DNA from: Ancylomarina sp. DW003
Lineage (GTDB): Bacteria > Bacteroidota > Bacteroidia > Bacteroidales > Marinifilaceae
Assembly: GCF_029029505.1 (NCBI RefSeq)
Contig: NZ_JAKJSD010000005.1
Span: 124,001-188,000, forward strand
Length of the DNA: 64,000 bases
Direction of reading: 5' to 3'
Shown here: in pieces, positions 12,480-57,994 of the stretch
Layout of the letters: each line of letters opens with the position of its first letter
How positions within the stretch are numbered: the stretch's first letter is position 1
Notes under the pieces: model-generated
Databases searched by the model: none
Seen by the model: only the letters and a program-made list of their open reading frames with translations
Told to the model about the DNA's origin: nothing
Made by a program: the position numbers and the translations under genes

Positions 12480-13805
12480 ATGAAGAAGCTTAAAGATATC
12501 GTAGTAATTGGTGTAGCTCTATTTGCTATGTTTTTTGGAGCGGGAAATCTGATTTTTCCTCCTCAGTTGGGTGTTATGAGTGGCAATGCCTGGCTACAAG
12601 CTATAATGGGCTTCTTCACAACCGATGTGAGCTTGTCAATACTGGCAATTATTGCCATAGCTAAATCAGGAGGAACCTTTCATTCATTTGCATCCAAAGT
12701 CGGACCAAAGTTTAGCATCATTATGGGTATCATTATTATGCTGATAATTGGTCCTCTATTAGCATTACCCAGAACAGGAGCAGTCAGTTACGAGATGGGA
12801 ATACTTCCTATTTTTCCAGATATACCTCAATACCTTTTCACCTTTCTATATTTTGGTGTTTCCTTACTCTTTGTCATCAATCCCAAAGGTATTATCGACA
12901 AAATAGCCGTTTATCTGACACCTGTTTTGCTTATTGCATTGGTATCAATCATTGTAAAAAACATGATGATACCTGATGTAACATTAGCTGCACCAAAAAT
13001 ATCAAATGTATATACCTATGCCTTTCTTGAGGGTTATCAAACTGTTGATGGCTTGGCAGCAGTCATCTTTGCTGGTATTGTTCTTCTGAGTTTAAAGGAA
13101 AAAGGCTATACCGATACCTCTTCACAAATAAAAATGACTATCAAGTCGGGCTTAGTCGCTTTTAGTATTATTGGTTTCGTTTATGGAGGACTCATCTATT
13201 TAGGTGCAAGTGGTGCTGCCAATATCCCTGATGGAATGAGCAGAACTGAAACTTTCATGGCTTTGGTTGATCAAATGTTTGGCCAATATGGGGTTTGGAT
13301 GGTTGCCGTAACAGTTATATTTGCTTGTTTTACAACAACAGTTGGTTTAACAACTACAGTTGCTGAATATTTTAGCGAATTGACAAACAATAAACTGAGC
13401 TATCGGTTTAATGTCGTTACGATCACTTTAGTCAGTTTCGTTCTTGCCAATCTGGGAGTTGAACAGATCGTTTACTTTTCAGGTCCAATTTTGAATATCA
13501 TTTACCCTGCCATACTGGTTTTAATAATTCTTAATCTTTTCGATAAATACATCCCTTACAGAAGTATTTACTCCGGAGTTGTAGGCGGAACGCTATGTTT
13601 TAGCATCCTGCTGTTTATCTGCAAATCTTTCGATTCCTTATCTCTTATCAAAGATTGGTTATCATCCTTCCCCATGAGCACTTACGAAATGGGATGGCTA
13701 ATACCTGCCATTTTGGGAGGACTGATAACTTCAGTCTTTTATAAGACTAAATTAGTACGTCAATCAAAGAAAACAAATAAGCCTTCAACATCTCTTACAA
13801 TTTAA
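12480..13805 (+). CDS. brnQ: Branched-chain amino acid:cation symporter BrnQ
   Basis: The protein of about 441 residues has roughly 12 membrane helices and the LIVCS/BrnQ signature at its N-terminus (FAMFFGAGNLIFPPQLG). It would import Leu, Ile or Val with sodium or protons across the inner membrane. I use ATG 12480 (MKKLKDI); an in-frame GTG six bases earlier is possible. Helices are evenly spread and the length is normal. It is preceded by an AT-rich region and appears monocistronic. Confidence 0.92.
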   Translation: MKKLKDIVVIGVALFAMFFGAGNLIFPPQLGVMSGNAWLQAIMGFFTTDVSLSILAIIAIAKSGGTFHSFASKVGPKFSIIMGIIIMLIIGPLLALPRTGAVSYEMGILPIFPDIPQYLFTFLYFGVSLLFVINPKGIIDKIAVYLTPVLLIALVSIIVKNMMIPDVTLAAPKISNVYTYAFLEGYQTVDGLAAVIFAGIVLLSLKEKGYTDTSSQIKMTIKSGLVAFSIIGFVYGGLIYLGASGAANIPDGMSRTETFMALVDQMFGQYGVWMVAVTVIFACFTTTVGLTTTVAEYFSELTNNKLSYRFNVVTITLVSFVLANLGVEQIVYFSGPILNIIYPAILVLIILNLFDKYIPYRSIYSGVVGGTLCFSILLFICKSFDSLSLIKDWLSSFPMSTYEMGWLIPAILGGLITSVFYKTKLVRQSKKTNKPSTSLTI

Positions 13806-36078: not shown

Positions 36079-36452
36079 AACATCGGTTTATTTCCTGTAT
36101 ATAACAGAGTTTATATCCCCAAATTCCCTCACCATTCTTCAAAGAATCTTCATTTTACCCTCTGCTTATTTCAAATCCAGCTTAAAAAATATAGCTAATG
36201 CAAAATCACAATTTGTAAGCTGAATTCTAGTGTTAAAGGGGTGTTTGGTCATTCCGTTTAGAATTCTGGTCAATTTGTACAAGTCGAAAAGGCCTATTTT
36301 TACTTGCTTTACATACGAAAATTGATACACCTGCATGCGAGTTGTAGAGGTTTTCAAATTTAGGTTCGTAAAGTAAGAGTATGCTCTTTCAATTTGGTAG
36401 CTTGTGGAGCATCTCTTATTTCTTTATCTTTGAGTTTTACGCAAAGCATACG
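36079..36452. other. Intergenic region with regulator upstream site
   Basis: The 374 bases between galM and the sensor-regulator contain the 21-bp-spaced GGTCA direct repeat at 36244-36281. I see no convincing gene here; a 63-codon frame on the minus strand is AT-rich and has no family resemblance. Confidence 0.5.
36244..36281 (+). promoter_or_regulatory. AraC-type direct repeat upstream of the sensor-regulator
   Basis: GGTCATTCCGTTTAGAA at 36247 and GGTCAATTTGTACAAG at 36268 form a direct repeat with 21-bp spacing, two helical turns, as AraC-family dimers prefer. An almost identical double site lies upstream of susC (39329 and 39350). The pair suggests autoregulation and shared control by the AraC-domain protein encoded at 36453. 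Confidence 0.65.
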
Positions 36453-39086
36453 ATGATAAGAACATTTATAACTTCTTTATTATTACTTCTCTTTTTCTGT
36501 AGCACTAAACTGCAGGCCGACCAGCATTTTCAAAAACTTCACAAATACACAACAGAACACGGCATTGCAAACAATACGATCCATTCTATTTTTCAAGATT
36601 CAACAGGGCGCATATGGATTGGAAGTATGAATGGTTTATGTACTTATAATGGTAAAGAATTTATCAGTTTTCAAAATACAGATTCTTTAAAATCAAATAC
36701 AATCATTTTCATCGGTCAGATCGATAAAAACCAGCTCCTTTTGGGAACCAAGAATGGCAATTACATCTTTTCCATTTTAGAAGAGAATTTCACTAAAATT
36801 CATTTGCCTGAAAATGAAAACTCTCCTGCCACTGCCCTTTTCAGAATTAATAACAAAACTTTTATTGGTAGCAAAAAGGGAATTTACAAATACAATACGC
36901 AAAAACGAGAAGGAAAAAAAATAGCTCAGATCTCCATTACTTGCAAGCAAGTATCTCCTGAAAATAAAGTTCTTCTGGGAACTAATGGGGATGGTATATG
37001 GGAAGCTAATTTAAATAACGATAAACTCAAACTTACACCTGTTTTTAAGACACTTGCAAATGAACAGATAAAAGCCATGCATTTTAAAGAGGGAGGAACC
37101 CTTTTAGTTCTGAGTAAAAAAGGGCTTTGGCTTGCTGATAAAAACGAAACAAAACTCATTATTTCAGGCTCATTCTCATCACTTGAAGTGTCGCAGCAAA
37201 ACGAGATACTACTGGGAACTAAGGGGCATTTTATTCAACAAGTGTATCAAAGTAATAATCAGTTCAGCCTAAAAAATTATATCAAGCAAGACAATGAGGT
37301 CTTCAACGACTATTTCGATGCTCATATTAATATTCTTTTCAAGGATGATTCAGGTGTTATTTGGATTGGAACTAATCGAGCAGGAGTTGACAGAATTGAT
37401 CGCAAGAAAATCACGTTTACCAAATATAAAAGCAAGGCTCAAAGCCAAGCTGCCGAAGCGGGGTATATTAATGCACTCACACAAAGTGAAGATGGAAAAA
37501 TATGGGTTGGAACTTCAGGCAAAGGTCTGTTCCTACTGAATAAAGCAAAAGAAGAGTTACTTCCTGTTAAGGTTCTGAATATAGACACAGATAGCCTTTA
37601 TATTGAAGCCTTACTACAACACAACAATAAACTCTATATTGGAACAAGACATCATGGCATTATTACAGCAAACTATCCTCCACAAAACTTCAGTGAGGTA
37701 AAAATATCAGGACATATCTTTTCTTCAGAAGCTGGTTTAGAAAAAAACAACTACATCTATTCTCTAAAGAATTTCAATAATCGACTCTACATCAACTCTT
37801 CCAAAGGCACATTTAAGTACGATTTCGGAACAGATAAGATGGTGAAAACCGACAGCCTTCCTTCTTTAAACATTGAGATTGACTCTTTGAACAACAAGTG
37901 GATTCTATCTTATAATATGAACCTATTTTTTAATCAAACTCAAGTCAAACTCGAAACCGAGGTGTCTGACATTCTCCTTTCCAATAATCAAGGTGTTTGG
38001 GTTCCCACATTAAAAGGTTTGGCATTAATCGATAGTGAAAATAAAACACCTGTCTTTTTTAATCCGCCGGAGAAAGTCATTGAATTTACATCCATAAGGG
38101 AAGATCAGCAAGGTCACTTCTGGCTTGGGTCACGTATGGGTATCTATCGATTCGATCCCCAAAGCAGAATCTTTTCGGCCTACCAAATTCCTGGCGGGGC
38201 AAAGGCCAATAGTTTTAACCATGGGAAAATATTACAGACAGAACAAGGTGAATTTTTCTGGGGTAGTAACGATGGACTTGTAGCTATAAAGCCTTCAACT
38301 GTTGATTATTTGCCTATGGCCAGGTTTGAAATAGAGAGAAACAGTAAGAATTCAGCTATATTTGAGGTGTACAACTACTCTTTTAACCATCAGGAAGACA
38401 ACAGTATTGCCTATCAATTCTCACACCCTGATTCGCTTTGGCATCTGATTCCTGCTAACAGTTCGAGACTTGACTTTTCTCAGATAGAAAAAGGCTCATA
38501 CACAATAAATATAAGCGTTGTAAATGCAGATGGTCTTTTTAATAAGGCATACCAATCCTTTAATTTCGATATCAAGAATTCCAATAAATCAAGCTTAAGC
38601 TGGTTGTTACTCGTAATTATCGGCTTAATCGGAGCAGTCATCATTATTTTAAAACGGAAACAAAATCCAATTCCTTTCGACGAAACCGAATATAGTACCT
38701 CAATTGAAACGCCCGAAGACAAAATCTATAAGGAATGGATGCGTGACGATTTTATGCAAAAAGCCATTGAAATTATCGAGGGAAGTATTTCGAACACTTC
38801 TTTTGGCGTAAACGAGCTATACGAAAGCATGCAAATGAGTAAATCAAACTTCTATCGAAAGCTCAAAATCATTACCGATCTGTCACCCAATGAACTGATT
38901 CGATTCATTAGACTTCGAAAATCAGCTCAGCTGCTTATTCTACCCGATTTAAGTGTGAATGAAATTGCCTACGAAGTGGGATTCAACACACCTTCTTATT
39001 TCACACGTTGTTTTAAACAGCAGTTTGGCATAGCTCCTTCAGAATACAAAGAGTATTATGAAAGCTTGTGTAGTGTTGTAAAATAA
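36453..39086 (+). CDS. Membrane sensor-regulator: periplasmic propeller repeats fused to AraC DNA-binding domain
   Basis: I chose ATG 36453 because it starts a signal-like sequence (MIRTFITSLLLLLFFCSTKL). The product is 877 residues. Regulator-propeller repeats fill about residues 30-600 (for example DSTGRIWIGSMNGL, EDGKIWVGTSGKG, QQGHFWLGSRMGIY). A Y_Y_Y-like domain comes next, then one membrane helix (SWLLLVIIGLIGAVIIIL), and an AraC-type HTH ends the chain (LSVNEIAYEVGFNTPSYFTR). There is no histidine kinase or receiver domain, unlike classical hybrid two-component sensors. It likely senses an oligosaccharide in the periplasm and activates the downstream susC operon. Confidence 0.88.
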   Translation: MIRTFITSLLLLLFFCSTKLQADQHFQKLHKYTTEHGIANNTIHSIFQDSTGRIWIGSMNGLCTYNGKEFISFQNTDSLKSNTIIFIGQIDKNQLLLGTKNGNYIFSILEENFTKIHLPENENSPATALFRINNKTFIGSKKGIYKYNTQKREGKKIAQISITCKQVSPENKVLLGTNGDGIWEANLNNDKLKLTPVFKTLANEQIKAMHFKEGGTLLVLSKKGLWLADKNETKLIISGSFSSLEVSQQNEILLGTKGHFIQQVYQSNNQFSLKNYIKQDNEVFNDYFDAHINILFKDDSGVIWIGTNRAGVDRIDRKKITFTKYKSKAQSQAAEAGYINALTQSEDGKIWVGTSGKGLFLLNKAKEELLPVKVLNIDTDSLYIEALLQHNNKLYIGTRHHGIITANYPPQNFSEVKISGHIFSSEAGLEKNNYIYSLKNFNNRLYINSSKGTFKYDFGTDKMVKTDSLPSLNIEIDSLNNKWILSYNMNLFFNQTQVKLETEVSDILLSNNQGVWVPTLKGLALIDSENKTPVFFNPPEKVIEFTSIREDQQGHFWLGSRMGIYRFDPQSRIFSAYQIPGGAKANSFNHGKILQTEQGEFFWGSNDGLVAIKPSTVDYLPMARFEIERNSKNSAIFEVYNYSFNHQEDNSIAYQFSHPDSLWHLIPANSSRLDFSQIEKGSYTINISVVNADGLFNKAYQSFNFDIKNSNKSSLSWLLLVIIGLIGAVIIILKRKQNPIPFDETEYSTSIETPEDKIYKEWMRDDFMQKAIEIIEGSISNTSFGVNELYESMQMSKSNFYRKLKIITDLSPNELIRFIRLRKSAQLLILPDLSVNEIAYEVGFNTPSYFTRCFKQQFGIAPSEYKEYYESLCSVVK

Positions 39087-49199: not shown

Positions 49200-49301
49200 T
49201 CAAAAGAGATTGGCACTTTGAATCAGAAATACCAGTACAGCCGTTAGCATTAGCCCGTAAAAAAGCAAAGCTGCTATTTGAGTTTGTTTCTTCTTATCCA
49301 T
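49200..49301 (-). CDS. 33-residue single-helix membrane peptide coupled to rdhC
   Basis: An ATG at 49301 opens a 33-codon frame (MDKKKQTQIA) with one hydrophobic helix (about residues 9-27: IAALLFYGLMLTAVLVFLI) and ends with TGA at 49200. The start overlaps the last codons of the rdhC-like gene by 8 bases (ATGGATAA), a typical arrangement for translational coupling. Charged residues at the N-terminus suggest an N-in orientation. No family is recognised; it could be a small subunit of the membrane dehalogenase complex. It is the last gene of the operon. Confidence 0.55.
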   Translation of the reverse strand: MDKKKQTQIAALLFYGLMLTAVLVFLIQSANLF

Positions 49302-50439
49302 CTGATTTCAATATTTTATTTGTGAACCATCGTCTTGCATCGAGAAGAACTTTGAAGCTTGCTCCCACAGGACAGAAATAGTGACAAAAAAAGTCCGAAA
49401 TAAAAAGTGAGCCAATTAAGGCTGCGGGTAGAATATACCACTGCACACCAATTCCTTCCAATGAAAAAAACATGGCGAAAGGTTCGTAGGAAGCCAAAGT
49501 CGGATTTTCGGATATCAGAATTAAAATCAAGGACAAGTACAACAAATATTTAGGCGTGTGAATCAGGAATCGGCTCAGTTTAGGTGCCAGCTTGAAATTA
49601 ATACCCGATATTTTATTCAGAATTATCTGCCCGGCATGAAAAGGACAAACCGTATTGCAATACACATTCCTTCCCAAAACAAGAATGGTGAGTATATTTC
49701 CCAACAAGAGCACATACCAAACAAAATGCTGTCTGATATCGGGCATATAGCCCAAGAGAATTTTGGCAATATGCGATAAGGATACTGAGGCATTCAGTAC
49801 AAAGCCAATCAGAATAAAAGAACTGAAAAGGACTGCATATCTTAGTTTCTTTTTCTTAAACAAAACAGCTACAATACCCAGTATAAAAATCAAAGCAACC
49901 CATAAGTCCTGATAAGCTAGCTGCCATTTAGCCTCAATATCGGGAAGAGGAAAAGAAAACTGATCCGTGGCAAGTTTCCAGGAGGCCTCACGACTAGCCA
50001 AAGCAATCGCATTTGAACTCACTGTTGCTCCCGAAATCGCCTCTACATCTTCCCCAATCAGAAACTTATCATTGAGCTTTTTATCAGGGAATTGTTCAAA
50101 GAATCGCTTGTTGCGAAGCTTGGCCACATAGGCATGAGTCTCGGTATGGTGCATAAGATCCATATCGATAAGCCTCCCCAGGGAATCGGACAGAAGCATC
50201 ACTTTTAGTCGTCCTCCATAGCCCTGCGCCCAACCTTCGGATATATAACCAAGCCATTTGTCGCCACTGTAGACTCTGCTGCCTTTATCAACACGATCGA
50301 TATTATACGTCTCGAATAAAGCCGGTTGGTGCAGTTGCTTTGGTTTAATCACATCGGCCTGACCGATATAAAAAGCAATCAACAGGCTCGCAAAGGCAAA
50401 CCCGTTGATTATTGATTTCTTCATATTAATTGCCAGCAT
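49294..50439 (-). CDS. rdhC: RdhC/NosR-like membrane protein with FMN-binding and Fe-S motifs
   Basis: The 381-residue protein has one N-terminal helix, then a periplasmic FMN-binding domain whose covalent flavin motif is visible as EAISGATVSSNAI (Thr is the expected attachment site). About five helices follow, and two cytoplasmic cysteine motifs, CNTVCPFHAG and CHYFCPVGA, both of the CxxxCP type seen in NosR/NirI/RdhC. It probably moves electrons from the quinol pool or cytoplasm to RdhA, or assists its maturation. It starts 3 bases after the rdhB-like stop. An alternative start 15 bases inside (MKKSIING) is possible. Confidence 0.85.
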   Translation of the reverse strand: MLAINMKKSIINGFAFASLLIAFYIGQADVIKPKQLHQPALFETYNIDRVDKGSRVYSGDKWLGYISEGWAQGYGGRLKVMLLSDSLGRLIDMDLMHHTETHAYVAKLRNKRFFEQFPDKKLNDKFLIGEDVEAISGATVSSNAIALASREASWKLATDQFSFPLPDIEAKWQLAYQDLWVALIFILGIVAVLFKKKKLRYAVLFSSFILIGFVLNASVSLSHIAKILLGYMPDIRQHFVWYVLLLGNILTILVLGRNVYCNTVCPFHAGQIILNKISGINFKLAPKLSRFLIHTPKYLLYLSLILILISENPTLASYEPFAMFFSLEGIGVQWYILPAALIGSLFISDFFCHYFCPVGASFKVLLDARRWFTNKILKSDG

Positions 50440-50442
50440 GCC

Positions 50443-50724
50443 CTACTTCTTTTTAAGCGCGACTTTCCTGCCAAATAGGAGTAAAAGAATAGAAGGGATT
50501 CCAAATACAACCAATCCCATACTGGCAGCCCGGGGCACCCCCTCAAGAACTGAACTAACCGACCAAGCCAGACAGAAGATGAATAAAAAGCCTCCCAGTC
50601 CGAGCAAAGACCAGCTTAGCGCATTAAAATTAATCTGCTTGTGATATTTATATAAGCCCACTACAAAGAGGCATGAAAGTACGCCCAGCAGGTAAAATAA
50701 TATTTCTGTTCCAGTAAAAACCAT
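50443..50724 (-). CDS. rdhB: RdhB-like membrane anchor of the reductive dehalogenase
   Basis: The 93-residue protein has three hydrophobic helices (about residues 7-24, 34-54 and 66-84). The loop before the last helix reads SSVLEGVPRAASMG, which resembles the conserved E-x-x-[QR]-A-A element of RdhB anchors that hold RdhA to the outer face of the membrane. It lies 16 bases after rdhA and 3 bases before the rdhC-like gene. Length, position and motif together support the call, although RdhB sequences diverge strongly. Confidence 0.8.
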   Translation of the reverse strand: MVFTGTEILFYLLGVLSCLFVVGLYKYHKQINFNALSWSLLGLGGFLFIFCLAWSVSSVLEGVPRAASMGLVVFGIPSILLLLFGRKVALKKK

Positions 50725-50740
50725 TGTTTATAATTTTAGA

Positions 50741-52147
50741 TTAATGACCATTGTAACGTCTTCCTTTCGCATCGAAAAATTGATCAATCTTCTCAGGATT
50801 GTCTATATCTCCGTAACCGAATGCTTTATCCATTTCGCGCATAAAATCGTGAACAGGCCCCGGCATGGCAGCCGTAATTTTATCAACCAAACGGTGATGC
50901 CAAAAGTCAGGTTTGTTATATGGACAGGAAGCTATGCAGGAACCACAATCGCTACCCGTTTCGCCCCAAACATTGAAGCATTTGCGTGCATTCATATAAT
51001 ATTTCTTCACGCCTTTTGCATTGAACCAGGCATTCTCATAATCGGGTTCAAAACTTGGTTCGGTATCGTAAGTAATAGCCTGACCGGGGCAAGCATCGGC
51101 ACAACGTTTGCAATTCTTACAAAAGTCCATTGCACCAAACTCAACAGGCTTGTCGTATTCAACAAAATCAAAATCGGTATACACTTTAGCCAGACGCACA
51201 CGTGGCCCATACTTGTAAGTAATTAATGTTCCCATTCTCGAACCTTCACCCAAGCCCGCAGCAATTGCATAAGGCACACTCAAACCCGTATCGTTCCCAG
51301 CCGGAACAGCTTGATAACCTAATTCTTTAAGAAAAACGGAGACCTGATGTGCTACCTTTGTCATAGCAGAATACTCGGCACCTACAGTTGCACCTTCTAT
51401 CATACTTGGTGCTGCCGACACGGCTTCGTAGTCCATTTCAAAGGCCATTACAATCACACTCTTAGGTTCAAAGGGAAATTTCTCCCATCCGTAAACCGCC
51501 TCATCCATCCTACCACTCATAACAGCAGCCGGATCGATATGTTCCGAATAGTCCCAACGGGTATCGCGTTTGCTTATGCCTATTAAATCGGCACCATACA
51601 AACGAGCCGTTCTCTTGATGATATTAGCCGCATCCGCTTTAGATTGAAACTTGTATTGGGGTCTGGCTTTGTGCTCGCCACCTTCGGGGCTATGTCCGCT
51701 TTTCGTATCTGATTGATTCCAACTTAGAATACCTGTGTTGGGAACGCCAAAACAAGACAAAGGAGAACTTGAATGATGCAAGGCCCACCCCCCGGCATTC
51801 ATAGCCTGTGCCAGCTGATCGTAACCGGGCTTTGTATTATGTCTTTCGCTTGTAAACATTTGTCCGGCCTTAACCACTTCTTCATCTTCGGGATGAAAGC
51901 CCAAAAGAGAGCCCGTAAAAATAATGTCTCTGGTGCTATGCTGTTTGTAATCATCCCTTACTTCAGCCGGAAATTCATCATGCGTCTTAATACTATTTCC
52001 TCCTGTTTTTTCATCAATCTTTTTGGCTAAGCCTTCTTTGGCTTTAGCAGGAATAGCAATGGCACCAATAGCGGCACCTGCAGCTCCCAATTTCAGAAAA
52101 TTCCTTCTATTAATTGCGGAGGGATCTTTAGCCTTCTTTGTAATCAT
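50741..52147 (-). CDS. rdhA: Reductive dehalogenase catalytic subunit (Tat-exported, corrinoid and 2x[4Fe-4S])
   Basis: The 468-residue protein starts with a twin-arginine signal (NRRNFLKLGAAGAAIGAIA). The dehalogenase domain includes GSRMGTLITYKYGPRVRLAK. Two ferredoxin-like clusters follow: FGAMDFCKNCKRCADACPG and CFNVWGETGSDCGSCIASCP. These three blocks are diagnostic of respiratory RdhA rather than of the related queuosine enzyme QueG, which is cytosolic and lacks the Tat signal. The enzyme would use a corrinoid to remove halogens from organic compounds outside the cytoplasmic membrane. The rdhB, rdhC and 33-residue genes follow. The natural substrate is unknown; marine bromophenols are a guess. 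Confidence 0.93.
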   Translation of the reverse strand: MITKKAKDPSAINRRNFLKLGAAGAAIGAIAIPAKAKEGLAKKIDEKTGGNSIKTHDEFPAEVRDDYKQHSTRDIIFTGSLLGFHPEDEEVVKAGQMFTSERHNTKPGYDQLAQAMNAGGWALHHSSSPLSCFGVPNTGILSWNQSDTKSGHSPEGGEHKARPQYKFQSKADAANIIKRTARLYGADLIGISKRDTRWDYSEHIDPAAVMSGRMDEAVYGWEKFPFEPKSVIVMAFEMDYEAVSAAPSMIEGATVGAEYSAMTKVAHQVSVFLKELGYQAVPAGNDTGLSVPYAIAAGLGEGSRMGTLITYKYGPRVRLAKVYTDFDFVEYDKPVEFGAMDFCKNCKRCADACPGQAITYDTEPSFEPDYENAWFNAKGVKKYYMNARKCFNVWGETGSDCGSCIASCPYNKPDFWHHRLVDKITAAMPGPVHDFMREMDKAFGYGDIDNPEKIDQFFDAKGRRYNGH

Positions 52148-52483
52148 CTTGTTTTGTCGTTTGATTGGTTTGTTTGGAGTTTAAACCTAGCCAATGAGGG
52201 TATCAAAATCGACGTGACAGAATATTTGAACGTGCGAAATAAATGGCAGAACCTATAAAGAACTCATACACAAATACAAACTATAAGTGGAATGAATGCG
52301 TAAACTTTCTGATCTTACTTTCAAATGCACCCTTTCGTCTACCGACACTTTCCCTCTTAGGGAAAGATCCAGTATAAACTTTCAGAATAATAATTCAAAG
52401 CTTAGTTTTATTCTCTCTCCTTCCAGGGGAGATGTCCGAAGGACAGAGGGGTGTTAATTACCATCTATTCATCAAAGAAGAAT
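52148..52483. other. Upstream region of the rdh operon with inverted repeats
   Basis: The 336 bases hold two repeat-like elements. CTTTCCCT/AGGGAAAG forms a hairpin at 52348-52366. A CTCC/GGAG-rich element with a TGTCCGAAGGACA hairpin lies at 52411-52454. They look like dispersed intergenic repeats. The rdh promoter must lie here, but I cannot point to it with confidence. Confidence 0.45.
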
Positions 52484-53590
52484 TTAATCCTCTTGCTTCA
52501 ATAACGAATTACGGTACGCTGATGGCGTTTGATTGGTGAACTTTTTAAAGGCCGTATTGAAGGTCCCTTTAGATTTGAAACCAACCTCGAAAGCCAAAGC
52601 CAGAATGGAATAATTCTCGTACTTGCTTTCTTTCAATAGCGCCTTAAATTCCTCTACGCGATAATTGTTCACATATTCATTAAAATTCTGCCCAACCAGT
52701 CCATTTAAGGTTTCAGTAATATGGTGTGGCGGAATATCCAGCTTTTCGCTAATCATGCTCAGTTTGATATCCGGATCTAAAAAAGGTTTCTCTTGAGAAA
52801 ACAAACCGTTTAATCGATTGGCAATAGCTTTGGCGTCTTTCTCTTGCAAACCGGAACGTAAATATTTATCGTAGTTGTGTAAGGCATATTTTTTATTCTT
52901 GTGATGAATGGACTGAGGATTTGTTATGATATGGTAGGCAAACAAATAACTTAGCGTGATAAAATAAAGAATATGTGCGATCTCCATCACGCCGGAGTAT
53001 GATTGATAGGTACTTTCGATAATGGTTTGCGGAATCATTAAAACACCATTCAATAACATCATAAACACCACCAAACGCAGCATCACCGTCTTATCCTTAT
53101 TGTATTTGAAAATATTGAATCGGCCAAAACTTTCGAGATGGTAAAATTTACTTAAACGATAAATAACCACAAGCGGATAGCTGATTGAAAGAATAATAAG
53201 CAGAACCATTCCCATGGCATGAACCGATTGGTGAAAAGAATCATAGCCCATTAAATCGGTAATAGCCAAAGCAATAAAAAGAACTGCAGGTATAATCAGA
53301 TGTCGGGCAATATGCTTGAAAGATGGCAGTTTGCCCTTTATAACCGTATAGGCATAAAAGTAAACTGAAATAGGAGCGGTAAACTCAAAACACAGAATTG
53401 CGGAAGCCAAAGAGGTAATATCGTAGCCTGATTCTAATACAAAACCATAGCTAAAATGCACCACTAATGTGAATAGGATGTAGTTCAATATCATATTTGG
53501 AGCTGTCTTAAACTTCTTTCTCAGAAGAATAAGCATCAGTCCGGAAGTTTGTAGCAGGCAATACAGTAAAAGGCCACTAATGATTCCCAT
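52484..53590 (-). CDS. AraC-family regulator with N-terminal membrane domain
   Basis: The 368-residue protein has about seven hydrophobic helices in its first 230 residues and an AraC-type HTH at the C-terminus (YSILALAFEVGFKSKGTFNT, then FTNQTPSAYRN). This 7TM-AraC layout is common in Bacteroidota. It lies directly upstream of the rdh operon on the same strand, separated by 336 bases, so it may control dehalogenase expression. Known RdhA regulators are usually CRP/FNR, MarR or two-component types, so this would be a different arrangement. The link is positional only. Confidence 0.85.
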   Translation of the reverse strand: MGIISGLLLYCLLQTSGLMLILLRKKFKTAPNMILNYILFTLVVHFSYGFVLESGYDITSLASAILCFEFTAPISVYFYAYTVIKGKLPSFKHIARHLIIPAVLFIALAITDLMGYDSFHQSVHAMGMVLLIILSISYPLVVIYRLSKFYHLESFGRFNIFKYNKDKTVMLRLVVFMMLLNGVLMIPQTIIESTYQSYSGVMEIAHILYFITLSYLFAYHIITNPQSIHHKNKKYALHNYDKYLRSGLQEKDAKAIANRLNGLFSQEKPFLDPDIKLSMISEKLDIPPHHITETLNGLVGQNFNEYVNNYRVEEFKALLKESKYENYSILALAFEVGFKSKGTFNTAFKKFTNQTPSAYRNSLLKQED

Positions 53591-54536: not shown

Positions 54537-56594
54537 TTACTCATCAATAGTCAATGGTTTTATCAATTTTTTATCAATATACCTTAAATTAAAATCTAGT
54601 CCTTCTGTTGCATTTTTAAATGATTCATCAGAATTCTCAAATGATGCAAACAACAGCGTCTGCACTCCAGTATATCCAGACAATTCAGTTAGAAAGCTAC
54701 GAAAATGGTTAATTGAAATATCTTGCTGTTTAGGTTCATCGAACATCAATAGATTTGGATGATTGCACTCAAACTCCTGTGATGTCAGATATAAGCTACA
54801 AGTATATGCCCAAATACAACGAATAAAATCACTTGCTCCTGAATCGAAACGCAAATCGTAACTCTTCAAATCATCTCCGAATTGAGTTTGCGCTACTGGT
54901 AAGTAGTTATCCATTGAAATATTAATTAAATCATTTGATTTGCTCGTGTATTCAAACTTCCCTATAAGTCTCTTAAACTCAGCAAGTAAATACCTTAATT
55001 TCTTTCTATCATTAGTTGAAAAATAATCACTCGGCAAATTTTCAGTATCATTCAATATATTCTGATGCTCAGATGATAAATATTCTACTTCTTCAATATA
55101 TTCATTAAAGTCTTCCAAATATTTTGTATAAAACTCTATTCTCTTCTTAATATTTAGTTTACGTTCAATTTCAACTTCAGAAGGTAGCCTATCATCTGAG
55201 ATAAGTTCCCTTTTTATATCTCTTAGTTGCTGACGCTTATTAGATAAATCCAATTTGATTCTATCTAATCTAATTTCTTTGGTTCTAATCTTAGATTCTA
55301 ATCCTTCTATATATACCTTAATCATTTTAATCTGTGCATCGATAAAGGCTATATTATCTTCTATTAACATCGGTGTTTGAGTAATCTCCGATGGTAATAG
55401 CGAATCTTTAACAGTTTGTTCGCAAGTTGGGCAAATGTCTTGAGCTATCTTACTATCAATTTCAGCACCTAATTTTTTAACCTTTTGAGCCCCTTTATTC
55501 TTTCGTAAATCTTCTTGAAGTGATTGTAATTGCACTTTATATCTGATCAACTTGTCTTTATCAAAACTAAGTTCTTCCGACAACATTTCATAGTTAAGTG
55601 AATTTGCATTTATACTTTCATTTAGAGAATCAAGTTTTGCTTCATTTTGCTCAACTTTTTCAGAAACCTTAGGTATAATTACATGCTCAACTAACTCCAA
55701 TTCTTTGGCTTGTAAATCAATAAAATCAGGAATACTATATTGTTCTTCATCCTTTATTAATAAAATAGAAATACTATTCGTATCATTTACAATTGTTGGT
55801 TTAGAATCAAACCCATACAATTTACCACCTCCTTTTTCAGCAAAACGAGTTAATTGCTTAAATAAATTAGTCCACTTCTCTTCTAATACCCTCTTTGCTG
55901 TATTCAATTTTAACTTTTCCTGTTTATTCACATAAACATCAAGCCCTAGAACAAACTCGATAATTCTAGCTTCCTTATTTGTAAGACCATAAAAGGGCAT
56001 TGTAGCTAAAAATCCAGACCAACCAGTTTTTTGCTCAATAATAAATGAAGGTGCAACTTGTTGTAAATAAATCTTTCTTTTGTCTCCTGATTTGTTTAAT
56101 ACACTTGGTAAACTCCAACCTAAAAAATGCTCTAAAAACAAATGATAACCATAAATATCATCAGACGCTCCACCTTTATCGTGGATATACATAGGTTGTG
56201 AATCTAAAGCCTTGTTTTCCCCTGTTAATAAAGCTCCTTTAAATACATCAATCAATTGAGAGGCTCTTGATTCACATTTAACACTCCTTTTGGAAGTAAC
56301 TATTTTATTATTACCATTTTCGAACTCTAAGAAAACGAAAGATTGTAAAACTTGGTGAAAAGAACCTTTAGGAAATTCAACAATATCCTTCAAGACAGAC
56401 TGCATTGTTTTTTCATTCTTGCCACCGATTAATTCTTCGAATCCTAAACAATAAAGAATTGATTGGAACAAACTACTTTTTCCCGATGTATTATTACCGC
56501 GAATAATATTAAAACCTTTTTCGAAACTATATTCTGCACCATACAGACCAGAATTTGTATTAATCTCTATTTTTATTGCTCTTATATTAATCAT
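54537..56594 (-). CDS. SMC/Rad50-like ABC ATPase of an ABC-three-component-like system
   Basis: The 685-residue protein is an ABC ATPase split by a coiled coil. Walker A is GNNTSGKSS at residues 33-41, a zinc-hook-like CPTC lies at 388-391 between two helical arms (about 300-385 and 410-500), and SGAS (585-588) stands at the signature position. Walker B with the catalytic Glu is LLMFDEP at 615-621. In known families this layout belongs to RecN/Rad50-like conflict-system ATPases. It overlaps the middle gene by 8 bases and is the third gene of a tight operon with a nuclease-like effector gene, as in ABC-3C systems. Confidence 0.8.
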   Translation of the reverse strand: MINIRAIKIEINTNSGLYGAEYSFEKGFNIIRGNNTSGKSSLFQSILYCLGFEELIGGKNEKTMQSVLKDIVEFPKGSFHQVLQSFVFLEFENGNNKIVTSKRSVKCESRASQLIDVFKGALLTGENKALDSQPMYIHDKGGASDDIYGYHLFLEHFLGWSLPSVLNKSGDKRKIYLQQVAPSFIIEQKTGWSGFLATMPFYGLTNKEARIIEFVLGLDVYVNKQEKLKLNTAKRVLEEKWTNLFKQLTRFAEKGGGKLYGFDSKPTIVNDTNSISILLIKDEEQYSIPDFIDLQAKELELVEHVIIPKVSEKVEQNEAKLDSLNESINANSLNYEMLSEELSFDKDKLIRYKVQLQSLQEDLRKNKGAQKVKKLGAEIDSKIAQDICPTCEQTVKDSLLPSEITQTPMLIEDNIAFIDAQIKMIKVYIEGLESKIRTKEIRLDRIKLDLSNKRQQLRDIKRELISDDRLPSEVEIERKLNIKKRIEFYTKYLEDFNEYIEEVEYLSSEHQNILNDTENLPSDYFSTNDRKKLRYLLAEFKRLIGKFEYTSKSNDLINISMDNYLPVAQTQFGDDLKSYDLRFDSGASDFIRCIWAYTCSLYLTSQEFECNHPNLLMFDEPKQQDISINHFRSFLTELSGYTGVQTLLFASFENSDESFKNATEGLDFNLRYIDKKLIKPLTIDE

Positions 56595-57078
56595 TAAATA
56601 AGGTCCATTGGTTAGTTAATTCTTTTAGCTTTTTGTCTGTAATCTTTTTCTTTCCTATTTTCTTTAACAAGGAAATTTCATCGAAAAGGATTTCTTCATC
56701 TTCTTCAATTTTGTCGCAAAACATAAATCCTTTTTCTTCTAACTTATAAGTGCCCTTTGAGTAAGAACAGTATTTCTCAGCTGTTGCGATTTGTAATGCT
56801 CGATTTAAAGTTGGCTCAATCCCCCATACAGAAAAGTCTGTTTTAAAATTACTCTCTACAAAACTGAGTAATACCTTTCTGTTTTCAATGCGTTTAAATG
56901 CCCAAGAAAAAAGGTGCAGTTTTAGCAAACCTGATTTATTACCAATACACGAATATTTTAAGGTTAAACAAACCTGTGCAATCTTATAATTCGGTCTATA
57001 ATCTGCAGGTACAGAAATAGGTCTTTTGGTAAACGATAAATGTTTGATATTTAATTCATTCATATTATTCAAAATCAA
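56587..57078 (-). CDS. Small middle component of the ABC-three-component-like system
   Basis: The 163-residue protein has no enzyme motif. Its C-terminal half looks like a winged-helix region (LNRALQIATAEKYCSYSKG, then YKLEEKGFMFCDKI) that may bind DNA or bridge the other two proteins. The call rests mainly on position between the effector and ATPase genes. It overlaps the ATPase gene by 8 bases. ATG 57078 overlaps the effector stop by 14 bases; a second ATG at 57063 begins just after that stop and may be the real start. The short length matches middle components of such systems. Confidence 0.65.
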   Translation of the reverse strand: MILNNMNELNIKHLSFTKRPISVPADYRPNYKIAQVCLTLKYSCIGNKSGLLKLHLFSWAFKRIENRKVLLSFVESNFKTDFSVWGIEPTLNRALQIATAEKYCSYSKGTYKLEEKGFMFCDKIEEDEEILFDEISLLKKIGKKKITDKKLKELTNQWTLFND

Positions 57079-57994
57079 TAGGGCAACGTAAAATCCAATC
57101 AGCCATTACCTGATTACACAAACTTTGAACCATAGGTTGATCTAAGTACGGAAAGCTTTCTTTTATTTTAGTTTCAACCATGATTGAAAACTTTCGATGG
57201 AGTTTATTATTATCTTGGTTAGGGAACATACATTCTTCCTCGACTTGCTCTTCTACTTGATTAATTATTTTGATGAATTTTTCGAAATCATCAGGATAAT
57301 CACTTTGCCACTTTTTTAAAATACCACTGCCTTCAAGAAAATGGCTCACACTTTTCTCTGTTAGACTATCTACTTTCTTTTCCAAATCTTTAGTACTAGA
57401 ATCAAATCTTGCCTTGTGCTTTCTTTGTGCATTTTTCACCAATGATATTTCCTTATCTTTCCATTTTAGTTTATCTTCTTCAGACGTTGCATCGGTTGGT
57501 GTAATATCTATTTTTCCATCATCAATTTTAAGAATATGATATATTTCCGGTTTTAAAAAGCCAATATCAGCAGGAATTACTTCAAAGTTTACATTATCAA
57601 TTATTGATAAGCCCCAAGATTTAACTTCATCTCTTTTCTTTGTGCAATGGTCAACCAATTCATTTTTACTATTCATTGGTGTAACAAAAAACCATTGTTT
57701 AATAGGTGTACCACCCAATTTATTAGAAAGTTGACTTTCAAAAGTCTTTAATTTCTTTAAATCCTTAGTGATCTTATCCCTCTGTTTGTCATATAGTTCA
57801 CTGGCACTATAATGCTCATCTGGACAATAACATTGAAATGCTTTTCCACTTCGAGTAAATCCTTCAATTCCATAATCTCCAGGCGTCGCTGGTATTTCAA
57901 AATATGAATCATTCTCATATCTTCTTTTAAATACTATTTGGCAAACGTCTTCCCATCTGTCACCATCAAAATTTCCATATTCTGTTTTAATCAT
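57065..57994 (-). CDS. PD-(D/E)xK-like effector of the ABC-three-component-like system
   Basis: The 309-residue protein has an N-terminal nuclease-like core. E15 lies in RWEDVC, GDYGIEGF at residues 39-46 gives Asp40 and Glu44, and AFQCYCP at 52-58 replaces the usual E/Q-x-K with Q-x-Y. That pattern resembles restriction-endonuclease-fold effectors of ABC-three-component conflict systems. The C-terminal half is helical and charged. No membrane segment is present. It is the first gene of the operon and follows an integron-like core site. Nuclease activity and target are inferred, and the missing Lys leaves catalytic competence open. Confidence 0.65.
   Translation of the reverse strand: MIKTEYGNFDGDRWEDVCQIVFKRRYENDSYFEIPATPGDYGIEGFTRSGKAFQCYCPDEHYSASELYDKQRDKITKDLKKLKTFESQLSNKLGGTPIKQWFFVTPMNSKNELVDHCTKKRDEVKSWGLSIIDNVNFEVIPADIGFLKPEIYHILKIDDGKIDITPTDATSEEDKLKWKDKEISLVKNAQRKHKARFDSSTKDLEKKVDSLTEKSVSHFLEGSGILKKWQSDYPDDFEKFIKIINQVEEQVEEECMFPNQDNNKLHRKFSIMVETKIKESFPYLDQPMVQSLCNQVMADWILRCPIDFE

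Follow-up and report, generated by a model that had tools for sequence, protein, structure and literature searches.

Organization of the rdh Operon

The stretch of DNA analysed here, called the window throughout, comprises 64,000 nt of contig NZ_JAKJSD010000005.1 of Ancylomarina sp. DW003 (Bacteroidota, Marinifilaceae), and all positions follow its own numbering. Its minus strand carries a reductive dehalogenase (RDase) operon transcribed in the order regulator gene, rdhA, rdhB-like gene, rdhC, and a 33-codon open reading frame (ORF) (Table 1). A preliminary description of this DNA had reported the three rdh genes as following each other with almost no spacing, which agrees with their extent (49294-52147) and with the gaps of 16 nt between rdhA and the rdhB-like gene and 3 nt between the latter and rdhC. 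The regulator gene and rdhA are separated by 336 nt, and the ATG of the short ORF overlaps the rdhC stop codon (49294-49301). The A-B-C gene order is seen again in many related loci, far beyond chance. The same description was accurate for the three rdh genes and left the AraC-type regulator and the 33-codon ORF unnamed; its start coordinate, 49200, coincides exactly with the end of this ORF. Hereafter, L-numbers denote rdh and related loci and G-numbers denote genomes, of which G000 is the window's own.

Table 1. Features of the rdh operon and of the region upstream of it.
Feature	Position	Strand	Description	Evidence
rdhA	50741-52147	minus	468 aa; catalytic subunit	TIGR02486, fold, motifs, tree
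rdhB-like	50443-50724	minus	93 aa; putative membrane anchor, three predicted helices	Profile match to PceB, alignment, hydropathy
rdhC	49294-50439	minus	381 aa; membrane flavoprotein	FMN_bind and Fer4_5 over cut-off, motifs, hydropathy
Microprotein ORF	49200-49301	minus	33 codons; single predicted helix	Recurrence downstream of rdhC, codon-position bias
AraC-type (HTH_18) regulator	52484-53590	minus	Predicted membrane protein with seven helices	HTH_18 60.9 bits, AlphaFold2 model, conserved upstream position
Possible regulator site	52205-52233	minus	Weak, not claimed as operator	Single-match pattern fitted with the site included

Identity, Motifs, and Fold of RdhA

RdhA passes the reductive dehalogenase (RDH) model TIGR02486 with 212.2 bits (cut-off 160.35, E 1.5e-62) and fails the model of the epoxyqueuosine reductase QueG, TIGR00276, with 34.5 bits for a cut-off of 200; a Pfam search at E 0.001 returned iron–sulfur (Fe–S) and twin-arginine translocation (Tat) models alone and no dehalogenase model. 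The Tat signal and the two cluster motifs listed in the preliminary description were located: RRNFLK at residue 14 fits the pattern RRXFXK, with the arginine pair invariant in all 21 aligned RdhA, the first cluster motif (FeS1, CXXCXXCXXXCP) reads CKNCKRCADACP from residue 343, and the second (FeS2) reads CFNVWGETGSDCGSCIASCP from residue 390, with its CXXCXXXCP pattern beginning at residue 401. The eight cluster cysteines are invariant in the same alignment (21/21), as are Tyr259 and Arg318, which occupy the positions of PceA Tyr246 and Arg305. The segment KYGPRVRLAK at residue 312 had been presented as RdhA-specific; it is indeed conserved, G314, R316, R318, and K321 being invariant in 21/21, but its exact letters are not exclusive, and two characterised PceA carry variants. 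No hydrophobic stretch of RdhA exceeds the hydropathy threshold.

The closest solved chain is 8q4h_A, the PceA of Desulfitobacterium hafniense, both by sequence (E 3.6e-78) and by Foldseek fold (E 5.0e-33). Profile matches in the PDB were DhPceA (E 9.7e-119), SmPceA (2.5e-77), NpRdhA (8.8e-32), and QueG (1.6e-10), the closest chains in order being D. hafniense PceA (8q4h), Sulfurospirillum multivorans PceA (4uqu), NpRdhA, and QueG. For the AlphaFold2 model of RdhA (mean pLDDT 75.1, pTM 0.79), the Foldseek order after 8q4h_A was 4ur3 (2.9e-26), 4ras (4.6e-18), and QueG (2.5e-6). That the protein is instead a corrinoid Fe–S reductase with this fold but a substrate free of halogen would fit with a fold partly common to QueG, and we know of no demonstrated substrate for this Bacteroidota clade; this is nevertheless improbable, given that the two catalytic residues known from characterised dehalogenases occur in 21/21 and that an RDase of Marinifilaceae responds to 2,6-dibromophenol. 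The latter enzyme, from bin.4 of a consortium, is accompanied by RdhB and an upstream Btr-like regulator and was induced 1.65e3-fold by that compound (PMC12908670).

Phylogenetic Placement

A phylogeny with characterised enzymes, the check proposed in the preliminary description, was run by maximum likelihood on 57 rows that include three such enzymes; several long branches make its deep order unsure. The tree omits L019 (frames split), L027, L032-L034, L082, L089, the second rdhA of L023 and L025, and 18 of the 29 order-level loci, those used being L097-L102, L104-L107, and L110. The window RdhA falls within the seven-row Bacteroidales clade I (100/99), sister to the eight-row clade II (100/100), with joint support of 100/99. 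Around these clades stand Flavobacteriaceae, Fulvivirga, Melioribacteraceae, and then Vibrionaceae, while a Desulfobacterota pair and D. hafniense PceA with Oceanirhabdus lie outside these groups, the deeper order being weakly supported.

A misnamed epoxyqueuosine reductase, which the weak similarity to the QueG model might suggest, is refuted by the model score, which is far under the cut-off, and by the tree, in which five QueG rows form a distant outgroup (100/100) and RdhA is not placed with them. RdhA also has a Tat signal and an RdhB-like partner, and the genome encodes a separate QueG (L044 2251-3183) that falls in a 100/100 clade with four other QueG, far from RdhA.

This QueG and a hybrid-type RdhA (L002) are the two further RDH-model matches of the host genome. 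Hybrid RdhA with N-terminal transmembrane helices (TMH), described from Marinilabiliales (PMC6797604), belong to the same superfamily and form a separate eight-row clade (100/99). The window RdhA was rejected as a member of this TMH type, from which it differs by its Tat signal, the lack of a hydrophobic stretch over the threshold, a separate rdhB-like gene, and another clade. The catabolic NpRdhA type was likewise rejected: NpRdhA (4ras) has a common core fold with Tyr and Arg at matching places, but it is cytoplasmic, NADPH-dependent, and found elsewhere in the tree. The hybrid gene of the host (L002 832-2184) scores 149 bits, under the RDH cut-off, shows N-terminal hydrophobic stretches and an ENE motif by eye, and falls in the hybrid clade, a type listed for related genera in PMC6797604. 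RDH matches of 140-157 bits occur in 16/56 genomes of the family, and the five that were treed (L002, L093-L096) fell in the hybrid clade.

Other arrangements were seen among the relatives. A third, distant RdhA type occurs in the family (L078, L079, L080, and L081), where RdhC, further redox genes, and an ORF resembling that of the microprotein (broken in L078) lie nearby; Labilibaculum filiforme has this distant type (L079) plus a clade I operon (L016) in one genome. L021, L023, and L025 (Flavobacteriaceae) and L024 (Fulvivirga) contain paired rdhA, an extra gene of ~360 aa, rdhB, and rdhC in varying order, followed by genes named by eye as 2-oxoacid:ferredoxin oxidoreductase-like subunits. 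A plasmid search gave no rdhC above 27% identity and six plasmids with RdhA at ≤32% identity.

The RdhB-like Anchor and RdhC

The RdhB-like protein has no Pfam or NCBIfam match, and a profile of 19 RdhB matches PceB 8q4h_C with an E of 3.9e-11. It resembles known anchors in its small size, its three hydropathy-predicted helices, its position adjoining rdhA, and its similarity to PceB. The EXE motif is incomplete and reads E61-G-V63, the first Glu being kept in 19/19 aligned rows, and for this reason the protein is called RdhB-like.

RdhC passes the FMN_bind and Fer4_5 cut-offs and carries SGATVS as its FMN motif (residue 136), together with two CX3CP motifs (261 and 352) and six hydrophobic stretches, in agreement with the motifs published for the RdhC/PceC flavoproteins, namely, [ST]G[AS]TX[ST], two CX3CP, and six helices (PMC5928378). 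It differs in that the 3' end of the window rdhC is overlapped by the microprotein ORF, of which the available text of the same paper makes no mention.

A Predicted Microprotein Downstream of rdhC

The overlooked small ORF is the most interesting part of the locus. Its recurrence was examined after 32 rdhC genes, a set that excludes copies whose ends are identical and genes followed by <200 nt of DNA. A strict filter, set after the first examples had been seen, demanded an ATG ≤60 nt from the rdhC stop, a length of 24-48 residues, a single hydrophobic stretch, and a start of net positive charge; it was passed after 26/32 rdhC genes vs. 9/612 control ORFs (Fisher p 4e-33, kinship ignored), the controls being mechanically called ORFs of ≥100 aa in rdh loci and other stretches of the window's genome and not curated genes. 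Four further ORFs (L018, L019, L026, and L080) were accepted by eye, which brings the count to 30 of the 32; L129 has no such ORF, and that of L078 looks broken.

These ORFs come from several clades of Bacteroidota, three Vibrionaceae, two Thermodesulfobacteriota, and one Bacillota; even in Photobacterium and Enterovibrio, whose rdhC is oriented away from rdhA, the ORF is found behind rdhC. In an alignment of 28 rows, a Tyr of the helix is common to 22. Differences between three clade I pairs, disjoint and taken from the 15 computed, with the first four codons excluded, fall on codon positions 1, 2, and 3 in the numbers 36, 14, and 44 (p 5e-4), as in coding DNA. Away from rdhA, 16 RdhC-like genes were found, and the 15 whose locus was checked have no similar ORF by eye; in a looser listing, L143, L148, and L153 show an overlapping hydrophobic ORF, none alike by eye.

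No NCBIfam family matched the five microproteins tested, Pfam gave only sub-cut-off matches for three of them (DltX, MarC, and Pilin_N), and that of the window is also without a Pfam or PDB match. No published description of an rdhC-linked microprotein was found in the open-licence literature among the matches listed, which is weak evidence of absence, and no paper there combined "reductive dehalogenase" and "microprotein". On balance, it seems probable that rdhC-containing rdh operons encode an unrecognised fourth component, a single-helix membrane microprotein of 29-53 residues that most often begins with a positive charge and whose ORF overlaps the rdhC stop or is found at or close to it. 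In this reading, the microprotein, shared by Bacteroidota, Vibrionaceae, sulfate reducers, and a clostridium, stays with rdhC even when rdhC points away from rdhA and would be a structural or functional partner of RdhC. The 33-codon ORF of the window is read by us as a likely real gene and RdhC partner, easily missed by annotation because of its short length and its overlap. A parallel may be proposed in CydX, a protein of 37 residues that belongs to cytochrome bd oxidase (PMC4325964).

Regulator and Upstream Region

In the AlphaFold2 model of the regulator (mean pLDDT 74.9), seven long N-terminal helices precede the helix-turn-helix (HTH) domain. The protein reaches 29.5 bits with the Btr model, far below the cut-off of 900 bits. 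Compared with the PDB, the model gave no match under E 0.001, the best seven-helix receptor match having an E of 0.042, and such matches probably reflect helix number only. The predicted seven-helix form was not found in the open-licence literature, a search that is weak evidence of absence. Among the 16 loci of clade I/II type whose upstream DNA is visible, 15 have a homologue upstream of rdhA, either adjacent to it or one ORF away; the homologue in L015 is divergent, L014 shows none, and L013 begins too near rdhA to tell. An outer-membrane gene of the Phenol_MetA_deg family (PF13557) lies between the regulator and rdhA in L084 and L090 and downstream of rdhC in L080.

A motif, ACGTC...TGTCG, was observed upstream of rdh units in L016, L017, L083, L084, L085, L087, L088, and L090 as a candidate site of the AraC-type regulator; in the window, its counterpart diverges and lacks significance. 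When a model was trained on five relatives (L017, L019, L085, L087, and L088), the highest-scoring sites preceded the Phenol_MetA_deg gene in L084 (18.9) and L090 (10.6), occupied the equivalent position in L016 (12.8), and lay near rdhA in L018 (10.7), and L014 and L015 had none close to rdhA; across the 64-kb window, its top scores were 16.2, 14.0, and 11.4. A degenerate pattern, fitted with the window site included, has its single match in the 4.84 Mb of the host genome upstream of rdhA. With a nine-relative model, the best window score (12.6, upstream of the regulator) is below the 14.0 found elsewhere in the genome, and this model, made without the window, fails to rank the site at 52205-52233; no window operator is claimed.

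Cofactor Supply in the Host Genome

A search for corrinoid supply, also proposed in the preliminary description, found both synthesis and uptake-type genes in the host genome (G000; 4.84 Mb, 99.98% complete), in which nine cobalamin riboswitches score over the cut-off. One heads an operon for precorrin-2 dehydrogenase, CobA, a chelatase-like protein (scoring below its models' cut-offs), CbiL, CbiH-CbiC, CbiET, CbiG-CbiF, and CbiJ-CbiD, which continues with CbiM, CbiQ, and an ABC ATPase; CobS is located elsewhere in the genome. A BtuFCD-like set of genes, for a periplasmic binding protein, a FecCD permease, and an ATPase, follows another of the riboswitches, and a TonB receptor follows one more. 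TatC, two ApbE, and MenD are encoded as well, and the marker genes of organohalide respirers are present for corrinoid-ring synthesis, Tat, and menaquinone. Of the two outcomes that the preliminary description had named as refuting its reading, a placement with epoxyqueuosine reductases and a lack of corrinoid supply genes, neither came about. Since the host has its own corrin-ring pathway genes, the operon could be tested without added B12. A cobalamin riboswitch (13395-13563) was seen within L041 (11153-13563) upstream of genes that by eye are anaerobic ribonucleotide reductase-like.

Proposed Function

The genes, motifs, fold, tree placement, conserved neighbours, and cofactor-supply genes documented here point to a respiratory-type, corrinoid- and Fe–S-dependent reductive dehalogenase, and the whole mechanism set out below, as read from the genes alone, is given a probability of about 75%. 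The enzyme is most likely a periplasmic dehalogenase of aromatic, perhaps brominated, compounds and is probably fed by menaquinol. For the electron route, the substrate, the roles of RdhC and the microprotein, the inducer, and a gain in energy or growth, we infer the following scheme. RdhA would receive its corrinoid and both [4Fe-4S] clusters in the cytoplasm, cross the inner membrane by way of Tat, and settle on the RdhB-like anchor at the outer side of that membrane. Oxidation of menaquinol at the A/B interface would supply electrons, which the two clusters would relay to the corrinoid for removal of the halogen, with Tyr259 as the proton donor and Arg318 in the pocket. RdhC, with covalent FMN attached by ApbE, may serve as an auxiliary electron donor or a reactivating factor, and the 33-residue microprotein may be its small membrane partner. 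The seven-helix AraC-type protein would activate the operon in response to an organohalide, which is probably aromatic and in many cases brominated. The aromatic, brominated substrate is a best guess and not a result; it draws on the Phenol_MetA_deg neighbours, the induction of the bin.4 gene by 2,6-dibromophenol, and the bromo-specific Desulfoluna, whose strains with rdhABC clusters dehalogenate brominated, not chlorinated, compounds (PMC7031245) and of which a metagenome-assembled genome (L030) has a related operon.

The system most like this is the PceA2B2 menaquinol:organohalide oxidoreductase of D. hafniense TCE1 (8q4h; PMC10624902), with which the RdhA fold, the catalytic Tyr and Arg, the two clusters, Tat, and a small three-helix anchor are common. 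Nine PceA residues have been named for its menaquinone pocket (PMC10624902), and four of these are identical here, PceA K489, H495, D515, and Y520 corresponding to RdhA K412, H418, D440, and Y445, with the offset between the 8q4h chain and the numbering of the paper being our own count. The two systems differ in that identity is 30% in the Foldseek alignment, five pocket residues are changed or unsurely aligned, the second Glu of the window RdhB is Val, and the window has an AraC-type regulator.

Several observations weigh against the proposed mechanism. In the quinone pocket, PceA S486, W487, and A511 are replaced by Pro, Tyr, and Met, and the residues opposite A498 and R499 depend on the alignment (Asp and Lys in the sequence match; Val and Asp in the profile alignment, read in the window's numbering); the signal and much of residues 413-433 of RdhA, beside the quinone site, are poorly modelled. 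Five clade I rows (the window and L013-L016) have Val in place of the second EXE Glu, which the clade II rows keep; the Glu residues of this motif have been proposed to carry protons outside in the solved complex (PMC10624902), so the change at residue 63, at the Glu proposed for proton release, may bear on energy coupling. PceC was found to be ~50 times scarcer than PceA (PMC8905343) and is not part of the solved PceA2B2 complex (PMC10624902), and RdhC may for these reasons lie outside the main electron path. The window operon lacks the Phenol_MetA_deg gene, for which the genome has a single marginal match over the cut-off, at 25.5 bits, and another that falls short of it. The tree could take in only three characterised enzymes.

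A true dehalogenase that serves detoxification, or the dumping of excess fermentation electrons, and not growth by respiration is possible, though we consider it less likely. It would suit the patchy presence of the gene, as the RDH cut-off is passed in 12/56 genomes of the family and 1/4 other genomes of the same genus (G004), as well as a quinone pocket kept in part; in the order sample, 28/393 genomes pass (hybrid-type genes included), and in the phylum sample at E 1e-48, the single match among 395 genomes is the window's own. RDase genes have been listed in 112 Bacteroidota genomes, including Ancylomarina and Marinifilum, with no isolate characterised for organohalide respiration according to the available text (PMC12090745), which also accords with this alternative. 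Tat export, the membrane anchor, the kept protonatable K, H, D, and Y, and the presence of MenD, however, suggest quinol coupling and favour the respiratory dehalogenase.

Genomic Surroundings

The preliminary description had also recorded a respiratory-type RdhABC in a Bacteroidota genome next to a glycan (SusCD/GH97) locus, which is correct, and had proposed that both form one unit in which sugars give electrons to halogenated natural products, a coupling that found no support. Halogenated products of algae or sediments, also suggested there, would be candidate acceptors. The two loci do adjoin in the window genome, and L130, a locus with a distant RdhA, has an upstream GH97-like gene (27% identity). 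They stand on opposite strands, however, the glycan genes have their own upstream Reg_prop/HTH_18 regulator gene (36381-39086), and GH97 occurs in 0/30 related rdh loci within the examined flanks and in 1/5 further loci (L130), that is, near rdhA in 1/35 other loci. The operons of L016, L083, L084, L086, L087, L088, and L090 adjoin a shared gene of 276-305 aa (by eye), which is absent from the window flank. Because synteny is not conserved, the coupling is weakened and appears very improbable.

Base composition is 38-46% GC in the rdh operon and 41-44% in the glycan genes, and it gives no sign that the rdh operon is recent. A Lamassu-type defence system lies on the minus strand at 54537-57994 (LmuB 54537-56594, LmuC 56587-57078, and LmuA 57065-57994), ~1 kb upstream of the rdh regulator; with 30-34% GC, it is perhaps a recent insertion.

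Precedents and Significance

An rdh operon of this kind is already published from close relatives, and its novelty is limited. The organohalide respirers known so far are members of Chloroflexota, Proteobacteria, and Firmicutes (PMC12090745), and the preliminary description had treated the host phylum as unusual; this overstated the case, since RdhC and RDase genes of Bacteroidota, including Marinifilaceae, are in print (PMC5928378; PMC6797604; PMC12090745; PMC12908670), RdhC members having been noted in 2018 (PMC5928378). The bin.4 RDase, compared by description, is from the same family and likewise has RdhB, a Btr-like regulator upstream, Tat, and both cluster motifs (PMC12908670). Its authors placed bin.4 with Marinifilum, the putative counterpart of which (genus g11) has a clade II RdhA ~51% identical to that of the window, and Marinifilum and Ancylomarina were both named candidate organohalide respirers (PMC12908670). 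The parts not found in print, on the weak evidence of the open-licence literature, are the rdhC-linked microprotein and the predicted seven-helix form of the regulator. With both genes and transcripts now on record, marine Bacteroidota are candidate organohalide respirers, and the microprotein linked to rdhC would offer a concrete handle on what RdhC does.

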